DNA from: Deltaproteobacteria bacterium
GTDB taxonomy: Bacteria; Myxococcota_A; UBA9160; UBA4427
Assembly (NCBI GenBank): GCA_029261855.1
Contig: JAJDAN010000089.1
Span: 62,001-126,000 of the forward strand
DNA: 64,000 nt
Direction: 5' to 3'
Position 1 is the stretch's first letter. Every line of letters starts with the position of its first letter. Of this stretch, positions 4,342 through 64,000 are shown in pieces. The notes under the pieces were generated by a model. That model made no database searches, was not told the origin of the DNA, and saw only the letters and a program-made list of their open reading frames with translations. Both the position numbers and the translations under genes were made by a program.

Positions 4342-6084
4342 ATGCTCTTGCGCGCTTTGTTCATCTTGGGCCTCTTGATCCTGCCCTCTCGCGCCCTCGC
4401 GACGCAGCCGAACGTGGTCTTGATCCTGGCGGACGACATCGGCTTCAGTGACTTCGGCGCCTACGGGAGCGAAGTCTCGACGCCCAATATCGACGCCCTC
4501 GCGGACCGCGGTGTGATCTTCTCGAATGCTCACACGTCACCCATGTGTGCATCGTCGCGGGCGATGCTGATGACCGGCGAGTCGAGTCACCGCGCCGGAG
4601 TCGGCAACCTGCCCGAGTTCACGCCCCCGGATTGGACCGACCACCCGAGCTACCTCGGCCACCTCGCCCCCGACGTCACCACCATTGCCGAACGCCTGAA
4701 ACCCATCGGTTACGACACCTACATGACCGGCAAGTGGCACCTCGGCCACGCGCCCGGGACGCTCCCGAGTGACCGGGGCTTCGACCGCACCTTCATTCTG
4801 GACGCGACCGGCGCCGACAACTGGGAGCACCGGTCCTACCTGCCCTTCCAAGAAGCGCCGTGGTTCGAGGACGGCGAGCCGACCCAACTCCCTGACGACT
4901 TCTACTCGTCGGAGCACCTCGTCGACAAGATGATCGAGTACGTCGGCGAGCGTGACGACACGATGGCGCCGTTCTTCGCCTATCTGGCATTTCAGGCCGT
5001 CCACATCCCGGTGCAAGCACCCCGCGAGTTCACGCAGAAGTACCTGGAGACCTACAAGGGGGGTTGGCACGAGCTTCGCGAGCGACGCCGCGCGGCCACG
5101 GTCGAGAAGGGTTTGATTCCGGCTGGTGCTCCCATCCGACCGATTCCAGAAAAATTCAGGAAATGGGATGAACTCAGTCCCGATGAGCGCGCCATGCTGT
5201 CGAGGAGCATGGCCGTCTACGCCGGCATGATCGAGGCCATGGATTTCAACATTGGCCGCTTGATCGAACACTTGAAACGAATCGGCCAATACGAGAACAC
5301 TGTCTTCATCGTCACGTCCGACAACGGCGCCGAAGGTTCCGACCCCATGGCGCTCGCAACGATGCGACTGTGGATGCCGACAAGCGGCTACAGCCGCGAC
5401 CTGGAAACCCTGGGCGAACGCGGGAGCTATTCATACATCGGCCCCGAGTTCGCCAACGCGGCCTCTTCACCGGGTGCATGGTTCAAGTTCAACTCGACGG
5501 AAGGTGGAATCCGGGTTCCACTCGTCATGGCGGGTCCGGGCGTGAACGAACGCCGAGTCGAACAGGGCATGACTTATGTCACCGACATCGCTGCGACGAT
5601 CTACGACTTCGCCAACTCGGCACCCCTGGCACCGGACGAGATGGCGGGACGCAGCCTTCGGCCGGTGCTCGAAGGCGAGACGCGCAGCGTCTACGGCGAA
5701 AGCGACGTGATCGGGCAGGAGGCAGCCGGCCACGCGGCCCTGTTCCAAGGCGACTACAAGATCACGCGGGTCAACCCGCCTCAAGGGGATCGCCAATGGC
5801 GTCTGTACGACCTGGCAAGAGACCCCGGCGAGACGCGTGACCTGGCAGCAGAACAACCCGAACGCTTCCAGACGATGATCGCCGCGTACAAGGCCTGGGT
5901 CGAGGCCAACCATGTCATCGAAGTGCCCGACGACTACACCCACGTCAATCAGATGGTCTCGAACTTCTTCGCGTATCAGAGAAGGGAGCACCCGTGGATC
6001 CTGGCAGCGCTAGGGGTGTCGGCGCTCGGGATCCTTGGGGGGGTCCTGGCCGGGCTCCGGTCACTCGCGCGACGGATGACCTGA
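4342..6084 (+). CDS. Exported sulfatase (arylsulfatase-like)
   Basis: A 580-residue type I sulfatase that hydrolyses sulfate esters, probably in the periplasm. The start at 4342 is chosen because GGAG lies 12 bases upstream and a signal peptide begins at once (LLRALFILGLLILPSRALA). The metal-binding pair D31-D32 (LILADDIG) and the catalytic signature C69-A-S-S-R73 are present; Cys69 would be converted to formylglycine. Typical signatures have Pro or Ala two residues after Cys, here Ser71. GKWHLGH and SDNGAEGS, the further active-site segments, are intact. The C-terminus carries a hydrophobic helix ending in RSLARRMT, suggesting membrane anchoring. No formylglycine-generating enzyme is encoded nearby. 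Confidence 0.9.
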   Translation: MLLRALFILGLLILPSRALATQPNVVLILADDIGFSDFGAYGSEVSTPNIDALADRGVIFSNAHTSPMCASSRAMLMTGESSHRAGVGNLPEFTPPDWTDHPSYLGHLAPDVTTIAERLKPIGYDTYMTGKWHLGHAPGTLPSDRGFDRTFILDATGADNWEHRSYLPFQEAPWFEDGEPTQLPDDFYSSEHLVDKMIEYVGERDDTMAPFFAYLAFQAVHIPVQAPREFTQKYLETYKGGWHELRERRRAATVEKGLIPAGAPIRPIPEKFRKWDELSPDERAMLSRSMAVYAGMIEAMDFNIGRLIEHLKRIGQYENTVFIVTSDNGAEGSDPMALATMRLWMPTSGYSRDLETLGERGSYSYIGPEFANAASSPGAWFKFNSTEGGIRVPLVMAGPGVNERRVEQGMTYVTDIAATIYDFANSAPLAPDEMAGRSLRPVLEGETRSVYGESDVIGQEAAGHAALFQGDYKITRVNPPQGDRQWRLYDLARDPGETRDLAAEQPERFQTMIAAYKAWVEANHVIEVPDDYTHVNQMVSNFFAYQRREHPWILAALGVSALGILGGVLAGLRSLARRMT

Positions 6085-6173
6085 CCGAGCTTGGAGTCGC
6101 GCCACCACTTGGATGAGAATGCGACGCGGTGAACCCGTCCCGGCGTACCGTTGATCGGGGCTAGGCTGTTGCG

Positions 6174-6701
6174 GTGACCCAGCGAACCCGGCGGATGCGA
6201 GCCTGGTGGTTCCCGGCGGCGCTCTGCGTCGTGATCCTCGCGAACGGGTTGCTCGCGTTCCGCTACGTCCGTGAGCTGGGTCCGATGGCGACCTACCGGA
6301 TCACGGCCAGGTCCGACGACTCGCTGGCGGCAGCGGTCCCCGCGCGGCCGGCCGCGTTCGGCACGATGATCCGCCAGCTGCTGGCCATCCAGTCCTCTCT
6401 GGGCGGCGCCGTGTTGATGGTCCCGACGGACCTCTCCCTGAACGCGACGAGCCTGCAGCTCTTCGCCCGGCTCGAGATCCAGCAGGAGCGCCGGGCGCCG
6501 ATCGACCCAGGCGTCGCCGACGAGCTGGAGGCCGAGTCGGACCCGGCGCATCTGCTTCTGGCGGGACGCAGGCTCTACGTCGCGCGAGATCTCCGGCCGC
6601 CGTGGACCGCCCCGCTCCACCTGATCGAGGCCCATGGATCGCCGCGGTTGTTCGTCGTGTCGGGGGCCCGGCTCGACCGGCTCGGCGGTTCGGTTCGATG
6701 A
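6174..6701 (+). CDS. Single-span membrane protein of unknown function
   Basis: A 175-residue protein starting at GTG 6174. One transmembrane helix is visible near the N-terminus (WWFPAALCVVILANGLLAF) after a basic leader, followed by a mostly soluble domain that would lie outside the cytoplasm. No family is recognised. Its stop overlaps the ATG of the next gene as ATGA, so the two are translationally coupled, and it probably forms a complex with the polytopic product of that gene. Confidence 0.65.
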   Translation: MTQRTRRMRAWWFPAALCVVILANGLLAFRYVRELGPMATYRITARSDDSLAAAVPARPAAFGTMIRQLLAIQSSLGGAVLMVPTDLSLNATSLQLFARLEIQQERRAPIDPGVADELEAESDPAHLLLAGRRLYVARDLRPPWTAPLHLIEAHGSPRLFVVSGARLDRLGGSVR

Positions 6702-8146
6702 CCGAGGCCGTGCTCCACGCGCTGCTGTTCGGCCTGGGGCTGACCTACACCTTGCCCGCCTCCCGGGAAACGGGCCTGCCTTTTGCGGTCGCTGCCGCGT
6801 ACCCGGTAGGCCTGCTGCTGTGGGTCGTCGCGATGCTCGCGTCCCTGGTCGCGCCGGTCTCGCTCTTCCCCGCCGCGCTCACTGTCGGTCTCGCGCTGCT
6901 GGCCGGCGTCGGGCTCGCGCGCACGCTCTCGACCCTGAGGCAGACCCGGGGCGGCGCGCTCGGCCGCCTCGCTGCGGGTTGCGCGGGCTTCCTGCTGGCC
7001 GCGATCTTGTTTAGCGAGCTGAACCTCGCTGTCCTGACCGTCGACTCGTTCACCTACATCGGAGCCGGCCGCAGCCTGGCGACCTTCGCCGACCCGAGCG
7101 CGCTGGCGGGTGTGCTGACCAACGTCGGCGTGTTCCAGGTCCTCGTGCAGAGCGCATCGATCCCGATCGGCGTTCCGTACCTGCACGCGGCATCCCCCTT
7201 GCTCGCCGTGTCGGGAATCGCCTGCTTCGTGGTGCTGGGGCGGCGAGGCCGGCTCGCTCTCGGCGACGCGCCGGACCCGGGAAGAGGGCCCTGGCGAGAG
7301 ACGGCGATCGTAGTCCTCGCCGCCGTGGCGATGGCGTCGCCCTACTTCATGGTCGCCCAGGCCCTCTACGTGCACACCAACTACGCCGCCGCGATCTATC
7401 TGCTGCTGGCGTGTGCGACGTTCTGGCTTGCGGAGGTGGAAGACCGGGACGCCTGGCTGCCGTTCGCCTTCGCGTTCCTGGTGGCGTTCTCCCTGCAACG
7501 GCTCGAGCTTCCCGTCTATGGCGCCCTGTTCGCCGCCATCGCCTGCGCCGAGACCTCGCGTCAGAGCCGTTGGCTCAGGTGGGGGCCGTGGCTCTTCGCT
7601 CTCGTGATCGTTCCCTGGTACGCCTACCTGTCGACACTCTCGTCCGAGGAGACACGCCTACTCGCTTGGGACCGCGCCCTGTTCGTGATGACCGGCGTCG
7701 CGGCTCTTCCCGTGGTCGCGCATCTCGTTCGCAGCGGGGTCGCCCGGCACCTGCGTCCCTGGCTTGCCCCTTGCGCGGTCGGGCTTCCCCTCGCCGCCGT
7801 GGTCGCCAGCGTCGCGTTCGTTCCCGAACGCATGGAGAAGACGTTCAGTGGCCTCGTCTCCCACTTCATCCATCCGGCCTGGGGCGTCACGTGGCTCGCG
7901 ATCCTGCTGTTGGGCATTGCGACCCTGCGCGCCCGGCCGATTCCGCTGGGACGTCTCTTCAGCCACGGCGGCGCCGCTTCACTGTGCCTGATCGCGTTGA
8001 CGGGTGCGGCCCGGGCCGGCGGCTACCACGGCGGCCTGACGGATTCGGGCAACCGCATGCTCACGCACCTCGTCCCCGTGGCCTTCTTCTTCTTCGCGGT
8101 GTCGCTCGGCCGTGCGCGCGCCGGGCACGAACCCTCGTCGCGCTGA
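6698..8146 (+). CDS. Polytopic membrane protein of unknown function
   Basis: A 482-residue protein with roughly 10-12 hydrophobic segments spread over its full length. The layout, with an aromatic- and Asp-rich loop after the third segment (LTVDSFTYIGAGRSLA), resembles GT-C-type integral membrane glycosyltransferases, where an Asp in the first outer loop is catalytic. No diagnostic motif is certain, so this is only a suggestion. The start is the ATG overlapping the stop of the preceding gene. No lipid-carrier or polysaccharide genes lie beside it. It ends 56 bases before the end of the convergent AraC gene. Confidence 0.7.
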   Translation: MTEAVLHALLFGLGLTYTLPASRETGLPFAVAAAYPVGLLLWVVAMLASLVAPVSLFPAALTVGLALLAGVGLARTLSTLRQTRGGALGRLAAGCAGFLLAAILFSELNLAVLTVDSFTYIGAGRSLATFADPSALAGVLTNVGVFQVLVQSASIPIGVPYLHAASPLLAVSGIACFVVLGRRGRLALGDAPDPGRGPWRETAIVVLAAVAMASPYFMVAQALYVHTNYAAAIYLLLACATFWLAEVEDRDAWLPFAFAFLVAFSLQRLELPVYGALFAAIACAETSRQSRWLRWGPWLFALVIVPWYAYLSTLSSEETRLLAWDRALFVMTGVAALPVVAHLVRSGVARHLRPWLAPCAVGLPLAAVVASVAFVPERMEKTFSGLVSHFIHPAWGVTWLAILLLGIATLRARPIPLGRLFSHGGAASLCLIALTGAARAGGYHGGLTDSGNRMLTHLVPVAFFFFAVSLGRARAGHEPSSR

Positions 8147-18747: not shown

Positions 18748-20388
18748 CTACAGACCGCCGATCTGGACGATGCGATTGACCTGTGAGTAGGAGGGGCCCG
18801 GATTCACCGGCATCGGGGCGGTACCCTGGCCCGTCACGATATTGACGCCGTTCCCCGTGATGGAGCGCGACGCATTGACTCCGTTCAGGACTCGCATTCC
18901 GTTCTGCGCACCCTCGACGACCAGAACGACGTCATAGCGCTCCTCGTCGATCGTGGACTCCTCCAGGACGATGATGTTCGCCTCGGCATCGCGGACTTCG
19001 ACGGCAGCACGCTGGCTGTGGGTCTCGCTTCGAGCATGGCCCGAGCCATGCGACTCCACGTTGGAGCTGCTCTCCGTCATGGTCTGCTCACGGGTCGTGG
19101 TCTCGGCCGTGCTTTCGATCAGGTTACAGGTCGTGCTTTCTGGCGGATAGCAGTAGACCTCTGGTGCTGCGTCGTTGCCGAGTTCGTCGTTGCCGAAGGA
19201 GCCCGCCAGGCCCTGGAAGGGATCCAGCTCCGCACTGACGGAGAGGTCGAAGACCGGAAGGCTCTCGCCCAACACGCGCCCGAAGTTGATGTTGGTACCG
19301 GGAATCCCGATGGCTTCCAGATCGCCGACCGACGCCTCGAGAATGCGCCTCAGATCGATCTCCGTATGTAGCGTCAATCCGCCCGGGGTCGTCTCGATCA
19401 CGCCACTGCCATACGCCGCAAAGCTCACCGCCCCGAGTTCGTCCACCGGATTCTCGATGTCCACAAGCGTCACGGGGCCGAGAGAGATCGACCTACCACC
19501 TTGGCTGGCGACGTCTTGGCCGACCAGATACACCTTGATCGCCGGGAAGGTCAGTGTCGCCGACTTCAGCTCGATTCCCTTCTCATCGCTCCAGACGATG
19601 TCTCCCAACGCCAGCGTCGGGCTTTCGAGTACCACGCGGGCTAGCTCCGTCTGGCCCACCTCCAGAAAAGTGATCTCGATGTCGGGGAACGGAGGTGGAT
19701 CCTGCACCTCGAATACCAGATCACCGATCGTGCGCGCGGGCACCGTGGCCTGGAACTCGGCACCGCGAACAGAGATCGCGCCCGAGCGATCGATCACGCT
19801 GCTCTCGGTGTATCTCTGGCTCAGGCGGTATTCCGATCCGGTGTCACTGAAGCTTCGGGTCGATCTTCCATCGGCGACCGAATAGCGTCCCAGCTCGGAC
19901 CGATGCGCTGCGGCCTGCTCGATCCGGTTGGACTGGCTGACCTCCGCTCCCTGTTCGGCCCCCACGCCGTCGCCGGATGCGATGGAGAGGACATTGGCGC
20001 CGCTCGCCGAAGCGCCGAGGGCGGTATTGACGACGTTCGCGGCTCGAAGCTCCTGCTGCGCCCCATCCGCCAACACGACCTCGTTGCCGAACTCCGAGAC
20101 GACCTCGGACCCGCCGACGACGATGCCCGTGCCACCCGCGACGTCTTCGTCGCGCTCGCTGTGCGAGACGTGGGCACTCGGCTGATCGGACTCGTGCTGG
20201 AGCCCCAACCCTGCCGGCGGGGCGGCCGTAATCTCATCCAGCGATGGGTTGCTCAGCTCAACCGGAGCCGCGTCTGCAGAGAGGCCCGTCACGGACAGGC
20301 ACACCGCGAGATGCAGTCGCCAGGCAGACCGGGAGACTCGTGCGTACCTGGGTGACACGGGCGAGAACTGAACGAGCCGCTTCGTCAT
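18748..20388 (-). CDS. Fap-like functional amyloid subunit (large, two end repeats)
   Basis: A 546-residue exported protein with a signal peptide ending near ADA (residue 40). Next comes the motif LSNPSLDEITAA (45-56), shared with the two neighbouring repeat proteins. Two imperfect repeats of about 50 residues flank a beta-rich core: 109-158 (AQQELRAANVVN, GANVLSIASGDG, SQSNRIEQ) and 493-546 (AQNGMRVLNGVN, NGVNIVTGQG, SQVNRIVQ). The NGVN-x(4)-G...Q-x-N pattern matches the amyloid repeat of Pseudomonas FapB/FapC. Between them lies a 330-residue beta-rich domain not found in FapC. It is downstream of a second such gene and opposite a C39 peptidase and a FapF-like barrel. Function as a surface fibre subunit is inference. 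Confidence 0.72.
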   Translation of the reverse strand: MTKRLVQFSPVSPRYARVSRSAWRLHLAVCLSVTGLSADAAPVELSNPSLDEITAAPPAGLGLQHESDQPSAHVSHSERDEDVAGGTGIVVGGSEVVSEFGNEVVLADGAQQELRAANVVNTALGASASGANVLSIASGDGVGAEQGAEVSQSNRIEQAAAHRSELGRYSVADGRSTRSFSDTGSEYRLSQRYTESSVIDRSGAISVRGAEFQATVPARTIGDLVFEVQDPPPFPDIEITFLEVGQTELARVVLESPTLALGDIVWSDEKGIELKSATLTFPAIKVYLVGQDVASQGGRSISLGPVTLVDIENPVDELGAVSFAAYGSGVIETTPGGLTLHTEIDLRRILEASVGDLEAIGIPGTNINFGRVLGESLPVFDLSVSAELDPFQGLAGSFGNDELGNDAAPEVYCYPPESTTCNLIESTAETTTREQTMTESSSNVESHGSGHARSETHSQRAAVEVRDAEANIIVLEESTIDEERYDVVLVVEGAQNGMRVLNGVNASRSITGNGVNIVTGQGTAPMPVNPGPSYSQVNRIVQIGGL

Positions 20389-20414
20389 CGGTGTGCGTAC
20401 CGGGCCGAGGGACA

Positions 20415-20454
20415 CGGGAGCATGTCTTTCGTGTCGGCGGCAGACATGCTCCCG
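20415..20454. terminator. Strong stem-loop between the two amyloid-like genes
   Basis: A perfect 13-base stem (CGGGAGCATGTCT at 20415-20427 with AGACATGCTCCCG at 20442-20454) has a 14-base loop. There is no T-run, so it is more likely an attenuator or RNA-stabilising element than a simple terminator. It lies in the 76-base gap between two minus-strand genes, where it could set their relative expression. Confidence 0.6.
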
Positions 20455-20464
20455 GTCACTGCAA

Positions 20465-21658
20465 TCAGCGACTGTGCGTGATGGTGTTGACCTGCGACAG
20501 CGACTGAATCCCTCCGCCAGCCGCCACCGAGATGTTGACACCGTTCGCCACGGCGCTCCCAGCAGAGTTGACGGCGTTCATGGCCCGCAGTCCTGCCTGC
20601 GCACCACCCGAGAGATTCACCAGATAGCTGGAGTCGATGTCGATGGAGGAATCGTCGACGACGATGTACTCCGCCTGCGCGTCCTCGAGCTCGAAGGGCG
20701 CCTGCATCGATTTCGAGGCGGCATTGTTCCATGTCTCCGCCGAGCTCGACGTCTCATCGAGGGTATAGAGCGTCGATGTGTCGGTGAGGTCCTCGGTCTT
20801 GTTCGTGTTGGCGCCGTCGATGCTGCAGTCGCCGTTGAAGGCCAGGCAACCCATGGCCACGACTGCGACCGTCAGGGACGGAAGCTGCAGCTCGACGAGC
20901 AGCGGATCGACGTCGACCGTGATCTGACCGGCCTGCAAGGAGACGTCGAAGGATCCGTTGACGACCGCACCGATCTTGTCGCCGCCGCCGCCCGCGGGAT
21001 AGTTGAAGTCCACTTCGCCATCGAAGATCGTATTGTCGTCTCTCGTGCTCGTGGGATCGTTGATCGTTGCAGCCAGATGCAACGTCGGCGAGTCGGCAGA
21101 GACGACCGAGCCGATCGTCGTCACCTCGTCCACGACCAATGACGACTGGATGTCGGTTACCTGGTCATAGATCGCATTCGATGCGGAGCTGTCTCTGGAG
21201 CCCGACTCCGAGTGATCGCTGTAGGTATTCGCGCCACGACCGTACTCCGGCAACGAAGACAAGCGACGTTGATCCTGGGACACCGCATTGATCTGCTCGA
21301 TGTCGTAGGGGCCTCCACCGCTTCCGAGCCCGTCGGGCACCACGATCTCGCCGTCGACCATCGCCTGCGAACTGAAGACGTTGACGCCGTTCGCCACGGT
21401 GCTCTCGCTGCTGTTGACGATGTTCAGCGCCCTGACCTCCGATTGGGCCGCATCGACGATGACCTCACCCTTGGACACCATCTGGGCGCTCGAACCGTTG
21501 CCCACGATGGCACCACCATTCGGCGGTGGATTGCTGTTGGATCCCGCTGTGATCGAGTCGAGCTGGTCGGGGCCCAATTCTTGTGGCGCGGCGATCGCCG
21601 TGGTGACGAGGAGCATCGACGAGGCGGTCAGCGCTATCGCATACACAGTCCGGTTCAT
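20465..21658 (-). CDS. Fap-like functional amyloid subunit (two end repeats)
   Basis: A 397-residue exported protein. The signal peptide (to about AIAA, residue 24) is followed by ELGPDQLDSITAG (27-39). Repeat 1 is at about 70-124 (AQSEVRALNIVN, ANGVNVFSSQ, IEQINAV) and repeat 2 at 352-397 (AQAGLRAMNAVN, ANGVNISVAAGGG, LSQVNTI). The core is Ser/Asp/Thr-rich and acidic. The repeats match those of the neighbouring 18748-20388 product and the FapB/FapC-type NGVN...QxN pattern. ATG 21658 is chosen because GGGGG lies six bases upstream; ATG 21664 is possible. It is first in a two-gene unit divergent from the small repeat protein, C39 peptidase and barrel genes. Confidence 0.72.
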   Translation of the reverse strand: MNRTVYAIALTASSMLLVTTAIAAPQELGPDQLDSITAGSNSNPPPNGGAIVGNGSSAQMVSKGEVIVDAAQSEVRALNIVNSSESTVANGVNVFSSQAMVDGEIVVPDGLGSGGGPYDIEQINAVSQDQRRLSSLPEYGRGANTYSDHSESGSRDSSASNAIYDQVTDIQSSLVVDEVTTIGSVVSADSPTLHLAATINDPTSTRDDNTIFDGEVDFNYPAGGGGDKIGAVVNGSFDVSLQAGQITVDVDPLLVELQLPSLTVAVVAMGCLAFNGDCSIDGANTNKTEDLTDTSTLYTLDETSSSAETWNNAASKSMQAPFELEDAQAEYIVVDDSSIDIDSSYLVNLSGGAQAGLRAMNAVNSAGSAVANGVNISVAAGGGIQSLSQVNTITHSR

Positions 21659-21839
21659 GGTCATCCCCCGGGAGATCGAGGTTGGCTTCGGACATTCAGC
21701 CTACGCAGCGAGAACCGACTCGGTCAAGCAGATTCGAAGGGGAGCCGACTCCCCCACGGGACCTGGGAGGCGCCAGGCTCTCGCTCATGACGGATCTGGT
21801 CGGGGGCCACGCGAAGGCCGTAGCGCCGCGCCCGGCATT

Positions 21840-21878
21840 CTATTCGCGGGTCATCATCAACTTCGTTGCTTCGAATAG
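21840..21878. promoter_or_regulatory. Inverted repeat in the divergent amyloid promoter region
   Basis: CTATTCG (21840-21846) and CGAATAG (21872-21878) are 7-base inverted arms 25 bases apart, 30 bases before the plus-strand start. They may bind a regulator of the amyloid locus. Evidence is positional only. Confidence 0.3.
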
Positions 21879-21907
21879 CGTGCAATGCGCGTAGACTGGA
21901 TCGCGTG

Positions 21908-22402
21908 ATGGGCCGCAGCACAAGAAGCTCCCTCGGACGCCCTGGCGGGATCGCCCTCCTGTCGACCTGCGTCCTGGTGATCGCCGGCGCCGTTCACGCC
22001 GACGACCGGGATCCCTTGACGACGACCGCCGAAGCAAGGCCAATCGCGAAGGTCGAGCTGAGCGACGCCCAGCTCGATCACGTCACGGCGGGCGCCTCCA
22101 CGGCGGAAGCGAATGAGGACATCGTCACCTTCGCGGCGACGAAGGCGACGGCGTCGGGCAAGACCGTGACCGCCGAGGGATCCTTCCAGGTGCTGAACGG
22201 GATCAACCCGGAGGCGATCGGCAACCTGATCCTCAGCGACGGCGCGCAAGGACAGCTGCGCTCGCTCATCAACATCAATGCGGTCAACTCCGAGGTCAAC
22301 GTCCTCCTGAATCTCAACATCACCATCGATTCGGCGGTCGGCACGCTGAATCAGCTCAATCTCAACGGGGTCGTGCCCGGCGTCCCGACGACGCGACCCT
22401 AG
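21908..22402 (+). CDS. Small Fap-like repeat protein
   Basis: A 164-residue exported protein with a signal peptide ending near VHA (residue 31). It carries ELSDAQLDHVTAG (50-62), the clearest copy of the motif shared with the two large repeat proteins, and one repeat at about 111-153 (GAQGQLRSLININAVNSEV, LNLNITIDSAVG, LNQLNLN). In known Fap systems the nucleator FapB and the accessory FapE are similarly small. It starts a plus-strand operon with the C39 peptidase (12 bases later) and the barrel protein. No obvious RBS precedes ATG 21908; GTG 21905 is an alternative. Confidence 0.7.
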   Translation: MGRSTRSSLGRPGGIALLSTCVLVIAGAVHADDRDPLTTTAEARPIAKVELSDAQLDHVTAGASTAEANEDIVTFAATKATASGKTVTAEGSFQVLNGINPEAIGNLILSDGAQGQLRSLININAVNSEVNVLLNLNITIDSAVGTLNQLNLNGVVPGVPTTRP

Positions 22403-22414
22403 CCGAGCGGGCCA

Positions 22415-23131
22415 ATGCGAGGGCCGCAGACCGCCATCCGCATTGCCTTGGCTCTCGGCGTCGCGTTGGCATTGGCCGCGCCTGGGGCCGCGGGCGACTA
22501 CTCGGTCGTCGCGAACGGGCAGCGGATCCGCACTCGCGTGAAGTCGCTTCTCGAGATCCGGGACCAGAACCTGGTGCGTCAGGGCTGGGACATCAGCTGT
22601 GGGGCCGCGGCACTCAGCACCGTCCTCACCTACGACTTCCGAGAGCCCTACACAGAAGCGACCATCGCTCTCAGCATCCTCGCGAACACCGACCCCGCCA
22701 AGGTCCGCGCTCGCGGAGGCTTCTCGCTGCTGGACCTGAAGCGTTTCGCCGAGGCCGTCGGGTACTCGGCACGGGGATACGGAGGACTCAGCCTGGGCGA
22801 TCTTGCGAACAGCAGTGTGCCCATCATCTTGCCGGTACGGGTCAAGGACTTCGACCACTTCGTCGTCTATCGCGGCCGCTACGCGGGCCGCGTGCTGGTC
22901 GGAGATCCCGCCTTCGGCAACCTGACGCTTTCCGAGAGGCGATTCGCAGAAATCTGGTCGAGCGGGATCGGCTTCTTCGTAGCACCGCCCGACGCTGAGA
23001 TCTGGGGAGGAGAACCCCTGGCACCGGAGACGATGAACCTGACGGTTCCCGATCTCAACTACGTCGAACGTCTGCTCCGCGAGGGAGGCATCACGCCGAC
23101 GACTCGGCGACCCCAGCCCACGGGAATGTGA
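22415..23131 (+). CDS. Exported C39-family peptidase, FapD-like
   Basis: A 238-residue papain-like cysteine peptidase. The signal peptide (IALALGVALALAAPGAAG) places it outside the cytoplasm. Catalytic residues are all visible: Q56 (oxyanion hole) and C62 in VRQGWDISCGAAAL, H148 in FDHFVVYRG, and D164 in LVGDPAFG. There is no ABC transporter domain, unlike bacteriocin exporters, so it matches stand-alone FapD of Pseudomonas. Placement between a repeat protein and a FapF-like barrel supports a role in maturation of the fibre subunits, whose shared LDxITAG motif is a candidate cleavage site. It overlaps the next gene by four bases. Confidence 0.88.
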   Translation: MRGPQTAIRIALALGVALALAAPGAAGDYSVVANGQRIRTRVKSLLEIRDQNLVRQGWDISCGAAALSTVLTYDFREPYTEATIALSILANTDPAKVRARGGFSLLDLKRFAEAVGYSARGYGGLSLGDLANSSVPIILPVRVKDFDHFVVYRGRYAGRVLVGDPAFGNLTLSERRFAEIWSSGIGFFVAPPDAEIWGGEPLAPETMNLTVPDLNYVERLLREGGITPTTRRPQPTGM

Positions 23132-24303
23132 ACGTGAGGCGGACTGCGAACTGGCATTGGCTGCTTCTCGCGCTCGTCCTGGTGGCCACGTTGCCATCGT
23201 CTCGAGCCGAAGGCGACACCGAGGACACGGCCGAGCTGCAGCGACAGATCGAGCTCCGCGATCGGCAGATCGAAGGCCTCTCGGAACGTCTCGAAGAGCT
23301 GGAGACGCGCGTCGAGCAGATCGAGGAGCCCTCGGGCGGGGACGAGGCGCCCGAGGTCCCGACCGCAAGCGAGGAGCCGTCGCATCCGGAGGCCGCAGGC
23401 GAAGACCTGGCGCCCGCTGACGCCAGGGAGAACGAGCGCCTGATCGCCAGTGCCTTCGAGCAGACCTTGATCGAGCGGGGCGGCCTGCTGCTGCCGTGGC
23501 GCAGCTACAGCATCCAGGCCGGCTTGACCTACGTCCACAGCTCCGCAGAGAACATCATCATCGACGGCTTCACGATCTTCCCGGTTCTGGTCGTCGGCGA
23601 CATCGTGTCGGAGAAAGTCGATCGAAACCTGGAGCTGCTCACCCTGACTGGGCGAGTCGGGCTGCCCTGGGACTCGCAGCTCGAGCTCAGGGTGCCCTAT
23701 GGCTTCCTCCGCTACCGGAGCGCCTCGGCCGACGGCGAAGAAATCGACCGCACGGACGCGGGTATCGGCGACGTGGAGCTCGCCCTCAGTCACCAGCTCT
23801 ATCGCAGCGACGGGACGTGGCCCGACCTGCTCGCGAGCTTCGCGTGGAAATTCGATACCGGCCAGAACCCCTTCAAGGCCGAAGACAGCGAGATTTTTGT
23901 CGGCACCGGGTACCAGTCAGCCAATCTCAGCCTGACCGGCGTCAAGGTGGTCGATCCGGTCGTGTACTTCGCCGGCGGAAGCTACACCTACAATCTCAGC
24001 ACCCACGAGCGAGTCGGGAAGTTCGAGCCGAGCTACAGCGCCGGTTTCAACGTCGGCATGGCGATCGCGCTGAACCTGAACACCTCGCTCAGCCTCGCCT
24101 ACGACCAACAGTTCACCGGAAAGAGCAAGCTGGACGGAGACGAGATCCCTGGCTCGTACAGTACCGTCGGAGTCGTCTCGTTCGGCAGCACGTTCTCCTT
24201 CCGGGACTACCTCAGCCTGGACTTCACCGTCGGTGTGGGCGTGACCTCCGATTCCCCCGACGTGCTGGTCACGATCAACCTGCCCTTCCGGGGCCGATTC
24301 TGA
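23128..24303 (+). CDS. FapF-like outer-membrane secretion barrel
   Basis: A 391-residue protein from GTG 23128, overlapping the peptidase stop. It has a signal peptide (residues 1-27), a heptad-rich coiled coil (about 35-67: AELQRQIELRDRQIEGLSER begins it), a Pro/Glu-rich linker (68-105), and a long C-terminal region of alternating beta strands ending in LPFRGRF with terminal Phe, the outer-membrane barrel signature. FapF of Pseudomonas has the same order: N-terminal trimeric coiled coil, linker, barrel. It would export the repeat proteins. Some database families label such barrels as phenol-degradation transporters; gene context favours fibre export. Confidence 0.82.
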   Translation: MNVRRTANWHWLLLALVLVATLPSSRAEGDTEDTAELQRQIELRDRQIEGLSERLEELETRVEQIEEPSGGDEAPEVPTASEEPSHPEAAGEDLAPADARENERLIASAFEQTLIERGGLLLPWRSYSIQAGLTYVHSSAENIIIDGFTIFPVLVVGDIVSEKVDRNLELLTLTGRVGLPWDSQLELRVPYGFLRYRSASADGEEIDRTDAGIGDVELALSHQLYRSDGTWPDLLASFAWKFDTGQNPFKAEDSEIFVGTGYQSANLSLTGVKVVDPVVYFAGGSYTYNLSTHERVGKFEPSYSAGFNVGMAIALNLNTSLSLAYDQQFTGKSKLDGDEIPGSYSTVGVVSFGSTFSFRDYLSLDFTVGVGVTSDSPDVLVTINLPFRGRF

Positions 24304-61617: not shown

Positions 61618-62187
61618 TCAGCCGGGCGGCACCTGGTCCTCGGGTGGGCCGAACGCGATGAGTCGCAGGGACCGCAGCCATTCCCGAAAGAGGTCCGGCC
61701 GATGCGAGGAGACGAGGAAGCCGCCCATCGCCATCGCGGCAAACAGATTGGCGACGGCGATCTTGCCGTAGCCGATCCATTCCACGAGCCCGGGTGCGAG
61801 CACGGTACCTGCGGCGATCGCGCCGAGCTCGAAGATCGCGAAAATCGTGAACAGCAGGATCGACGGATTCTTCGAATGCAGCTCCGCTTCGTGCACGAGC
61901 AGCGAGATCGCGGCGCCGAGCAGTCCGAACACCGCGAAGTGGACGGCCGTGTAGGCCGTCACCAGAGCCAGATCCACACGCGTGACCTCCGCGGGCGCGA
62001 TGCCCTCGAAGAGCGCCGCAGCCACGACGGTGGGCGTCAGCAGCGGATCGCCGCGCGTGACGTCGACGATCAGGAAGAAGATCGCGACCACCGATCCGCC
62101 GAGACCTGCCGAGAAGAAGGCGTCGTAGAGAATGTCACCGGTGGTGTGACCACTGCTCGAACCGCCCGAAGGCGCCGGTGCCGTCAT
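61618..62187 (-). CDS. Integral membrane protein of unknown function
   Basis: A 189-residue protein with four hydrophobic segments (GGSVVAIFFLIV, LVTAYTAVHFAVFGLLGAA, SILLFTIFAIFELGAIAAGTVL, IAVANLFAAMAMGGFLV). GGAGG is close to ATG 62187. Family not recognised. It follows the EamA gene in the same direction across 175 bases. Confidence 0.72.
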   Translation of the reverse strand: MTAPAPSGGSSSGHTTGDILYDAFFSAGLGGSVVAIFFLIVDVTRGDPLLTPTVVAAALFEGIAPAEVTRVDLALVTAYTAVHFAVFGLLGAAISLLVHEAELHSKNPSILLFTIFAIFELGAIAAGTVLAPGLVEWIGYGKIAVANLFAAMAMGGFLVSSHRPDLFREWLRSLRLIAFGPPEDQVPPG

Positions 62188-62362
62188 GGGGTCCTCCGCG
62201 CCGAAGCCATCCGCTTCGGCTCTGCGCCGGGGACCCAGCAATTGGCGCGGGGACATGCCCCGGCTGTTTGAAGGCGCAAGCATATCCGACTGCCGGGGAA
62301 CCGCGACGCCCCGCCCCGATGGTCGCGAGAAGGCGGAGACTGAGCCGGGTCCCGGAACGCCC

Positions 62363-63331
62363 TCAAGCCTCGTCGCCGCCCGCCTCGTCGCCGCCCTCTG
62401 CGCCGAGCGGTGCCGTCAGGGCGGGGACACGTTCGCGGGTCTCGACCGCGTGCGGAGCACGCACGAAGAGCAACACCCCCACCGCGACCAGCAGGAGGCC
62501 TGCGATCTGCTGCGGGGACGGGACCTCGCCAACGATCACGAACGCGGGCACGAGGGTCAGCACGGGGATCGAAGGCACGACGATGGCAGTCGCACGCGCC
62601 AGGTCGAGCCGGGCGATCGCCTGGTACCAGAGCATCGTTCCGACGTAGGACAGCACGATGCCCTGCACCGCCAGGACCGGGAGCTGCGCTTCGGCGATGC
62701 TGCCCGGCAGCAGCGACCGCCCGGAAAGCAGCGCGTAGCCCAAGGCCGTGAGCGCCAGCAGCAGGCCACCCCAGAAATAGCGAGCGCCCGTGAGCAGCTC
62801 CGGCACCGCGTGCGGCAGTCGCCGCAGCACCAGCAGGTGGGAGAGCTGCCAGGCGAGTGGCGTCGCGAGCAACATGCCGATCCCGAGCGGATCGGCCTCG
62901 GACTCGCCCGTCATCGCGAACGCGATGCCCACCAGCAGCAGCGCCGCCGACCCCACGCGGCGCAAGGTCAAGCGGTGGCCCAGGACCCCCCATGCGAGCA
63001 GCAGGGAGTAGACGGGCTCGATCTGCAGACACAGCACCGCGTCGAGCGCCGAGGTGCGCGCCGTCCCCACGAAGAAGAGCAGGTACGGGACCACGGTGCC
63101 CAGGACGCCGACCCCCGCCAGCAACGGCGCGTCGCGACCCTGGAACAAGCTGCGAAGCTGGCCTCGGGCGACCAGAACACCGGCGGCCGCGAGTCCCCCG
63201 AACAAGGTGGTGACGGCCGCCACGAAGACCGGATCACCCGCCTCGGTGGTGAGCCGTGCAACGGGGCCCACGAAGGCACCGTTCAGCGCGCACAGCGCCG
63301 CAAACACGAGCCCAGCTCGTTCGGGATTCAC
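62363..63331 (-). CDS. EamA/DMT-superfamily transporter
   Basis: A 322-residue permease from GTG 63331 with ten predicted helices in two EamA halves (ALCALNGAFVGPVARLT, LLLAWGVLGHRLTLRRVGSAALLLVGI; and YVGTMLWYQAIARLDLARAT). The family exports metabolites such as amino acids. Substrate is not predictable. The C-terminal tail is acidic with a GGDEAGGDEA repeat. Confidence 0.88.
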   Translation of the reverse strand: MNPERAGLVFAALCALNGAFVGPVARLTTEAGDPVFVAAVTTLFGGLAAAGVLVARGQLRSLFQGRDAPLLAGVGVLGTVVPYLLFFVGTARTSALDAVLCLQIEPVYSLLLAWGVLGHRLTLRRVGSAALLLVGIAFAMTGESEADPLGIGMLLATPLAWQLSHLLVLRRLPHAVPELLTGARYFWGGLLLALTALGYALLSGRSLLPGSIAEAQLPVLAVQGIVLSYVGTMLWYQAIARLDLARATAIVVPSIPVLTLVPAFVIVGEVPSPQQIAGLLLVAVGVLLFVRAPHAVETRERVPALTAPLGAEGGDEAGGDEA

Positions 63332-63418
63332 GGGTCGGGTCCGTCCTCACAGCCAAGCGCGATGCTTGGGATCGGTCCCGTATAGCCTGGGCGGGCGGAG
63401 GCCGGTAGGGTCGGCGCG

Positions 63419-64000
63419 TTATGGGCGAATACGCCGCCGGCCGAGCGCGAGCGCGATGCCCGCGCTGAGCAGCAGGCCCGTGGTCGGCTCGGGAACTACG
63501 CCGCCGACGGTCTCCGAGCTCGCACCCGATACGAGGGATGTCCCCTGCACGTGGAGCGCTGCCATCGCTGCGATCGAGCCCCCCGAAGCGAAGGAGGGTG
63601 CCGCAGCCAGGAAGGCCTCGAGATCGAGGGACAACGAGGTGTCCACCGGCGCGATCCGGAAGCTGGCGGTGGTCAGCTGACCGTTGCCGGGCGGACCGGC
63701 GCCATTGCCGAACGACACGCCGTAGTCGAAGTCGCTTCCGGCACCACCCGCCACGGGCGGCGCCAGCGAGAGTACGTACGCGGTCGTGACTTCGTCGTCC
63801 GAGGTGATCGACAGCTCCGGGATCGCACCGTCGAGGTTGAAATAGAAGCGATGGAGATCGGCGTCCGGGCCGAGCGCGTCGCGTAGCGCGATCTCGAACA
63901 GCAGGCCCGTGCCGTCCTGGACGACTTCGACGTCCGCATAGCTTCCTTGCAGTCCGTCATCGAACTCGACATCGAGCGTGAAGGCGACCGCCTGCGCGGA
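63419..64000 (-). CDS. PEP-CTERM protein (N-terminus beyond window)
   Basis: The frame is open from the right edge of the window to the stop at 63419, so only the start is missing; the first visible residues (SAQAVAFTLDVEF) look like a signal-peptide cleavage site. The mature part is a beta-rich domain of about 150 residues (FYFNLDGAIPELSITSDD, YGVSFGNGAGPPGNGQL). The tail VVPEPTTGLLLSAGIALALG with RRR is a full PEP-CTERM signal. Function unknown; export and outer-envelope sorting are expected from the tail. Confidence 0.87.
   Translation of the reverse strand, partial: SAQAVAFTLDVEFDDGLQGSYADVEVVQDGTGLLFEIALRDALGPDADLHRFYFNLDGAIPELSITSDDEVTTAYVLSLAPPVAGGAGSDFDYGVSFGNGAGPPGNGQLTTASFRIAPVDTSLSLDLEAFLAAAPSFASGGSIAAMAALHVQGTSLVSGASSETVGGVVPEPTTGLLLSAGIALALGRRRIRP

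Follow-up and report, generated by a model that had tools for sequence, protein, structure and literature searches.

A shared C39-type leader on the candidate cargo of a five-gene FapD/FapF-type export locus

The functional amyloid system Fap of Pseudomonas is encoded by one operon, fapABCDEF, in which the genes for a Sec-exported C39 peptidase (FapD) and a pore made of a coiled coil and a 12-strand beta-barrel (FapF) lie together with those of Asn-rich repeat proteins. Secretion depends on the active-site Cys of FapD, a periplasmic protein (PMC5557850). Published work left the substrate of FapD undetermined (PMC5557850, PMC6173800), canonical C39 sequences were described as absent from the Fap proteins (PMC5557850), and a review of December 2025 states that FapD is 'thought to process' the N terminus of FapE (PMC12822426). 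Since fapD-fapF pairs have already been reported in five further phyla (PMC6173800), the pair itself is not new. Fap operons have been described as almost invariant in their synteny and number of repeats, in a search that required FapB/C repeats (PMC12822426). Because such surveys demand FapB/C repeat homologues, they would miss FapD-FapF loci with other cargo, including the one analysed here, a block of five genes (P0001 to P0005) in a stretch of 64,000 nucleotides, hereafter the window, from a Deltaproteobacteria bacterium (assembly GCA_029261855.1, contig JAJDAN010000089.1, positions 62,001 to 126,000). We consider it likely that this block is a FapD/FapF-type export system with cargo of its own, in which a leader is cut from the cargo, which is then exported through the pore and assembled on the surface.

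Judged by sequence homology, the export side of the block is of the FapD/FapF type, because P0004 matches FapD and FilB, and P0005 matches FapF. P0004 belongs to the C39 family (PF03412, E=1.6e-15), and its nearest named models in NCBIfam are FilB (8e-34) and FapD (7e-30). With 104 bits against the 330-bit equivalog cut-off of the FapD model, and a FilB score likewise well under its equivalog cut-off, the protein is homologous but not equivalog-level. All four C39 catalytic residues reported in the preliminary description of this DNA are present (Q56, C62, H148 and D164), and they are invariant across nine homologues. P0004 is a stand-alone protein of 238 residues with a signal peptide and no fused ATP-binding cassette transporter, and a profile search of the 7-Mb genome returned it as the sole PF03412 match. 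P0005, described earlier as a coiled-coil/beta-barrel protein built like FapF, matches the NCBIfam FapF model at 1.8e-31, a homologous and not equivalog-level match given the cut-off of 700, and a PDB search with its profile reaches FapF at E=8e-40 across the barrel. For the machinery, the Fap hidden Markov models therefore agree with the earlier assignment.

Directly after the Sec signal, P0001 (PVELSNPSLDEITAA), P0002 (PQELGPDQLDSITAG) and P0003 (KVELSDAQLDHVTAG) share a leader segment that the preliminary description had not recorded. It has hydrophobic residues at -12, -7 and -4 and small residues at -2 and -1, and ends in TA(G/A). This is the spacing of leaders cut by C39 peptidases, such as those of ComA and PCAT substrates and bacteriocins. 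As read from alignments, the leader is present in all 22 cargo proteins from the window and the relatives, with a variant, V-W-A-G at -4 to -1, in the P0001 protein of locus L022. A degenerate DNA pattern of the leader matched seven times in the 7-Mb genome, as compared to two matches for a reversed control, and three of the seven are the leaders of P0001, P0002 and P0003, within 2 kb. The residues at -2/-1 are mostly Ala-Gly or Ala-Ala in the five-gene loci, Gly-Arg or Gly-Lys in FapE-type leaders, and GG in several other loci. No description of the leader was found in the open-access literature, subscription journals and preprints being outside the search. The features of the locus, whose five genes lie at the positions given in the preliminary description, are as follows.

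18748..20388, minus strand: P0001, a large repeat protein exported by Sec, in which a leader is followed by an N-terminal repeat, a beta-rich core and a C-terminal repeat (start most likely ATG 20388, rather than GTG 20541; stop at 18748)
20221..20265, minus strand: C39-type leader of P0001, from sequence, genome pattern match and conserved position
19915..20124, minus strand: N-terminal repeat region of P0001 (approximate), from homologue comparison
18751..19005, minus strand: C-terminal repeat region of P0001 (approximate), from BLAST/profile similarity to the C-terminal repeat of P0002
20465..21664, minus strand: P0002, repeat protein paralogous to P0001 and likewise Sec-exported
21542..21586, minus strand: C39-type leader of P0002, from sequence, genome pattern match and 7/7 homologues
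21263..21496, minus strand: N-terminal repeat region of P0002 (approximate), from homologue comparison
20468..20689, minus strand: C-terminal repeat region of P0002 (approximate), from homologue comparison
21665..21907, no strand: divergent intergenic gap of 243 base pairs, by its position a presumed shared regulatory region
21908..22402, plus strand: P0003, small Sec-exported protein adjoining the peptidase gene (better start ATG 21908)
22049..22093, plus strand: C39-type leader of P0003, from sequence, genome pattern match and 9/9 homologues
22415..23131, plus strand: P0004, Sec-exported C39 cysteine peptidase of the FapD/FilB type
23128..24303, plus strand: P0005, FapF-like outer-membrane barrel (about 23443-24300) preceded by a signal peptide and a coiled coil (about 23215-23337)

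Like Pseudomonas Fap, the locus encodes a Sec-exported C39 peptidase and a coiled-coil/barrel pore together with Asn-rich repeat proteins, and FapE bears a leader equivalent to that of the window cargo. On the other hand, the cargo has no detectable FapB, FapC or FapE mature domains, the large proteins have two repeats in place of the three imperfect repeats of FapB and FapC, every cargo protein bears the leader, and no FapA-like gene was recognised at the locus. The cargo genes lie upstream of the peptidase gene, two of them on the opposite strand in the window, unlike the single fap(A)BCDEF operon. The putative Fil pilus of Acinetobacter (filABC...) resembles the locus in the matches of P0004 to FilB and of P0005 to FilC (1e-15), whereas no similarity of FilA to P0001-P0003 was detectable and its leader-like stretch is weaker. 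Both the leader geometry and the catalytic residues recall the maturation of double-glycine bacteriocins by C39 domains of the PCAT1/ComA type. Here, however, the peptidase is stand-alone and Sec-exported, and since the Sec signal precedes the leader, the cut would be periplasmic, after inner-membrane transport.

We examined the association of leader and peptidase in a further 68 C39 loci, taken from the host's own phylum, from Gammaproteobacteria and from plasmid records; a FapF-like barrel is present at 62 of them, and 66 were used in the leader test. A strict textbook rule for the leader matched 52 of the 444 exported-like frames near the peptidase gene (within 2.5 kb and on its strand), as compared to 8 of the 1360 frames elsewhere (p=7e-25, odds ratio 22; the p-value overstates independence because the loci are partly related). 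Shuffled controls averaged 3.5 and never exceeded 10, and 38 of the 66 loci had at least one match. The frames ran from stop to stop, signals were called by a simple hydrophobicity rule, and the leader rule was composed after several of the loci had been viewed and is thus not blind. A matrix made from the window-clade leaders only scored at least 8 in 32 frames, 27 of them near the peptidase gene and on its strand (shuffled control, 7), a signal that is smaller than that of the strict rule but consistent.

At three sister loci (L107, L108 and L110), the leader recurs on small cargo proteins whose mature sequences are unrelated, as expected for a tag. At L110 (5684-7483), four consecutive small secreted leader proteins with Ala/Ser/Tyr/Gly-rich mature parts, e.g. 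ADAYAWSYGFSHTYAEASTYAYGGYYASAG, lie beside the FapD-FapF pair. The FapD-FapF export platform looks broader than amyloid. We see roughly even chances that FapD-FapF export in bacteria at large uses the C39-type leader to mark its cargo: any Sec-exported protein with it, whatever the mature sequence, would be trimmed by the periplasmic peptidase and handed on to the FapF-type pore, and Fap amyloid would be just one cargo class.

The leader segment also starts the mature FapE of Pseudomonas. In six FapE proteins that exceed the NCBIfam cut-off, from Pseudomonas-type operons, the signal is followed directly by ELKD-x-E-(M/L)-A-x-LRG-(R/K)-YVMPG, the leader varying as ELKD(A/S/Q)E(M/L)A(E/Q/D/T)LRG(R/K). 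In hhalign, the signal and leader of P0003 aligned with FapE at 92% (E=6e-7; reversed FapE control, 0.12), while the mature part alone gave 0.36, so that P0003 is not classed as a FapE subunit. The P0001 and P0002 families align to FapE at the leader only, and weakly. Mass spectrometry of Pseudomonas Fap proteins did not detect processing of FapA, and FapE alone lacked N-terminal peptides (PMC5557850). Genes in the fapA position of four fap operons of the Pseudomonas type (L062 7303-7773, L065 1981-2445, L066 7343-7822 and L067 1734-2258) encode a leader-like ELSD-x-D-(I/F)-x-G-(I/V)-(S/T)SG in mid-protein. Pairing a single C39 peptidase with three cargo proteins that bear the same leader, the present locus predicts both a substrate and a cut site for a FapD-type protease, and the question of its substrate becomes directly testable here.

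The cargo proteins themselves are less Fap-like than the machinery. By inspection, all three carry Sec-like signals, in agreement with the export proposed earlier. P0001 and P0002 are paralogous over their full length (hhalign 99.9%, E=2e-34), each with a beta-rich core between an N-terminal and a C-terminal repeat, and P0003 has one related repeat-like stretch (ININAVNSEVNVLLNLNI...QLN). The preliminary description had read a 'GVN-x4-G' pattern in all three and taken them for FapB/FapC-type subunits. The pattern fits P0002 best and P0003, which has no 'GVN', poorly, and the assignment as Fap subunits was not borne out. The FapB, FapC and FapE models gave no match to P0001-P0003 (FapB and FapC none at E<=1), and hhalign of the mature cargo against FapB and FapC gave probabilities of at most 5%, nothing significant, in a set-up in which FapB aligns to FapC at 98.6%. 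Because neither approach finds anything, the three are not divergent Fap subunits by the tests used. The hhalign probabilities of their families against FilA were at most 0.6%, again nothing significant, and the P0002 profile found nothing in the PDB. AlphaFold models of P0001 and P0002 have mean predicted local distance difference test scores of 32 and 36. A new fibre architecture in this lineage, as proposed earlier, is possible.

The cores of P0001 and P0002 share a conserved Cys pair (C464/C472 and C273/C280, respectively), the sole cysteines of the mature chains, which may form a disulfide. A weak match of P0003 to a CTB-bacteriocin model spans the leader stretch (22049..22093), and one member of the P0003 family weakly matches (E=0.002) the model of the alphaproteobacterial curli chaperone CsgH.

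From these observations we infer recognition and cleavage of the leader, an order of steps and fibre formation. All five products would enter the periplasm by Sec, and signal peptidase would leave P0001, P0002 and P0003 with the short amphipathic leader exposed at their N termini. Periplasmic P0004 is predicted from sequence to recognise the leader via the hydrophobic -12/-7/-4 positions and to cut after it, which would license the export of still unfolded cargo. The cargo would pass out through the presumably trimeric P0005 barrel, a route that follows from the homology to FapF. By analogy with Fap, P0001 and P0002 may then assemble outside the cell via their terminal Asn-rich beta-repeats, displaying the variable core, and P0003 may act as a small minor or initiating subunit.

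Several points weigh against this scheme. The window leaders end in AG or AA, not GG, and those of FapE in GR or GK; the strict rule finds nothing at 28 of the 66 loci, though the motif is visible by eye in several, and at least 4 of the 52 matches fall within FapB repeats. Furthermore, since FapA has a similar motif yet is reported to be unprocessed, the presence of the motif alone is no proof of cutting. Cleavage is proposed here from sequence, and amyloid formation by analogy, while the Fap repeat models miss the cargo. The FapA result and the leader ends also favor an alternative in which the leader-like segment is an uncut docking signal for the peptidase or the barrel and the peptidase acts elsewhere, e.g. 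in the periplasmic linker of the barrel; a FapD cut in FapF has indeed been proposed (PMC5557850). We regard this as unlikely, in view of the match in spacing and hydrophobic positions to cleaved C39 leaders, the small residues kept at -2/-1 and the unrelated cargo that share only the leader segment. A further alternative is compatible with leader cutting and concerns the final step only: the cargo could be surface or secreted adhesins that form no amyloid fibres. The missing FapB/C similarity, the large non-repeat core with its conserved Cys pair, the presence of only two repeats per large protein and the low Asn/Gln content of P0001 and P0002 (8-12%) point that way, whereas the Asn-ladder repeats, with an N-x10-N spacing that by eye resembles Fap repeats, and the use of a FapF-type pore for amyloid export in Pseudomonas point to fibres. 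Adhesins are a serious possibility, if not the one we would choose.

The FapD- and FapF-type partners, the conserved gene block and the match of the P0003 leader region to FapE could also indicate a genuine fapBCDEF operon, merely rearranged, with subunits diverged past recognition. However, the Fap models miss all three cargo proteins, their mature parts fail to align by profile where FapB and FapC do align, and the five-gene peptidases form a clade of their own, with Pseudomonas FapD elsewhere in the tree, making such an origin quite improbable. As for the barrel, a weak Pfam match to Phenol_MetA_deg (5e-5) would suit an unrelated uptake channel (COG4313/Phenol_MetA_deg) placed beside its neighbours by chance. 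The far stronger FapF match, the coiled coil and, above all, the recurrence of the five genes in other genomes, which already refutes a chance neighbourhood, leave this with almost no likelihood.

A genome scan found eight relatives with peptidases 51-70% identical to P0004, and a separate search added a ninth, L106. The hosts of the first eight are Marinobacter iranensis, other gammaproteobacterial metagenome-assembled genomes, one such genome from Pseudomonadota and one labelled Desulfobulbaceae. In five of the relatives (L018, L020, L022, L024 and L025), the Marinobacter one among them, the whole set of five genes lies on a single strand and runs P0002-P0001-P0003-peptidase-barrel, so that the doubt raised in the preliminary description, that the genes might never be conserved together, does not apply. 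The gene order at L106 is identical, but its P0002 is divided between two frames; L023 lacks P0001, and L019 and L021 end at contig edges. P0001 orthologues are accordingly found in the five complete loci and L106, those of L019 and L021 being cut by the contig end. No other gene in the flanks of the five-gene loci is common across the set.

In the window, the minus-strand pair P0001/P0002 and the plus-strand trio P0003/P0004/P0005 diverge from the 243-base-pair gap, in which no match to a sigma-70-like promoter was found, and the P0004 and P0005 genes overlap by four bases. The opposite-strand layout noted earlier is thus real in the window and peculiar to this genome. Because the relatives carry a one-strand operon, it would be a local rearrangement, most simply an inversion of the pair. 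An ancestral opposite-strand state was rejected, as all of the relatives are one-strand.

Among 379 genomes of the host's own phylum, the window-type peptidase occurs only in the window genome (401 bits, as compared to at most 141). The peptidase tree places the ten peptidases of the five-gene type in a single group (support 99), apart from those of the own phylum. The block was probably acquired horizontally. Contamination by a foreign contig was judged unlikely, given that homologues of the flanking genes occur within the host family (54% and 69%) and that the base composition is only slightly lower than that of the neighbours.

The Marinobacter iranensis genome (G082) carries several FapD-like loci of different types, at C422, C43 and C219: five-gene, Fil-like and with the barrel on the opposite strand. 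Stand-alone C39-family peptidases also occur on Campylobacter plasmids (47 records) and on 6-kb plasmids of E. coli and Acinetobacter. In the window as a whole, the local AT-skew is strong, and at its extremes, at 6001-8000 (-0.30) and 62001-64000 (+0.24).

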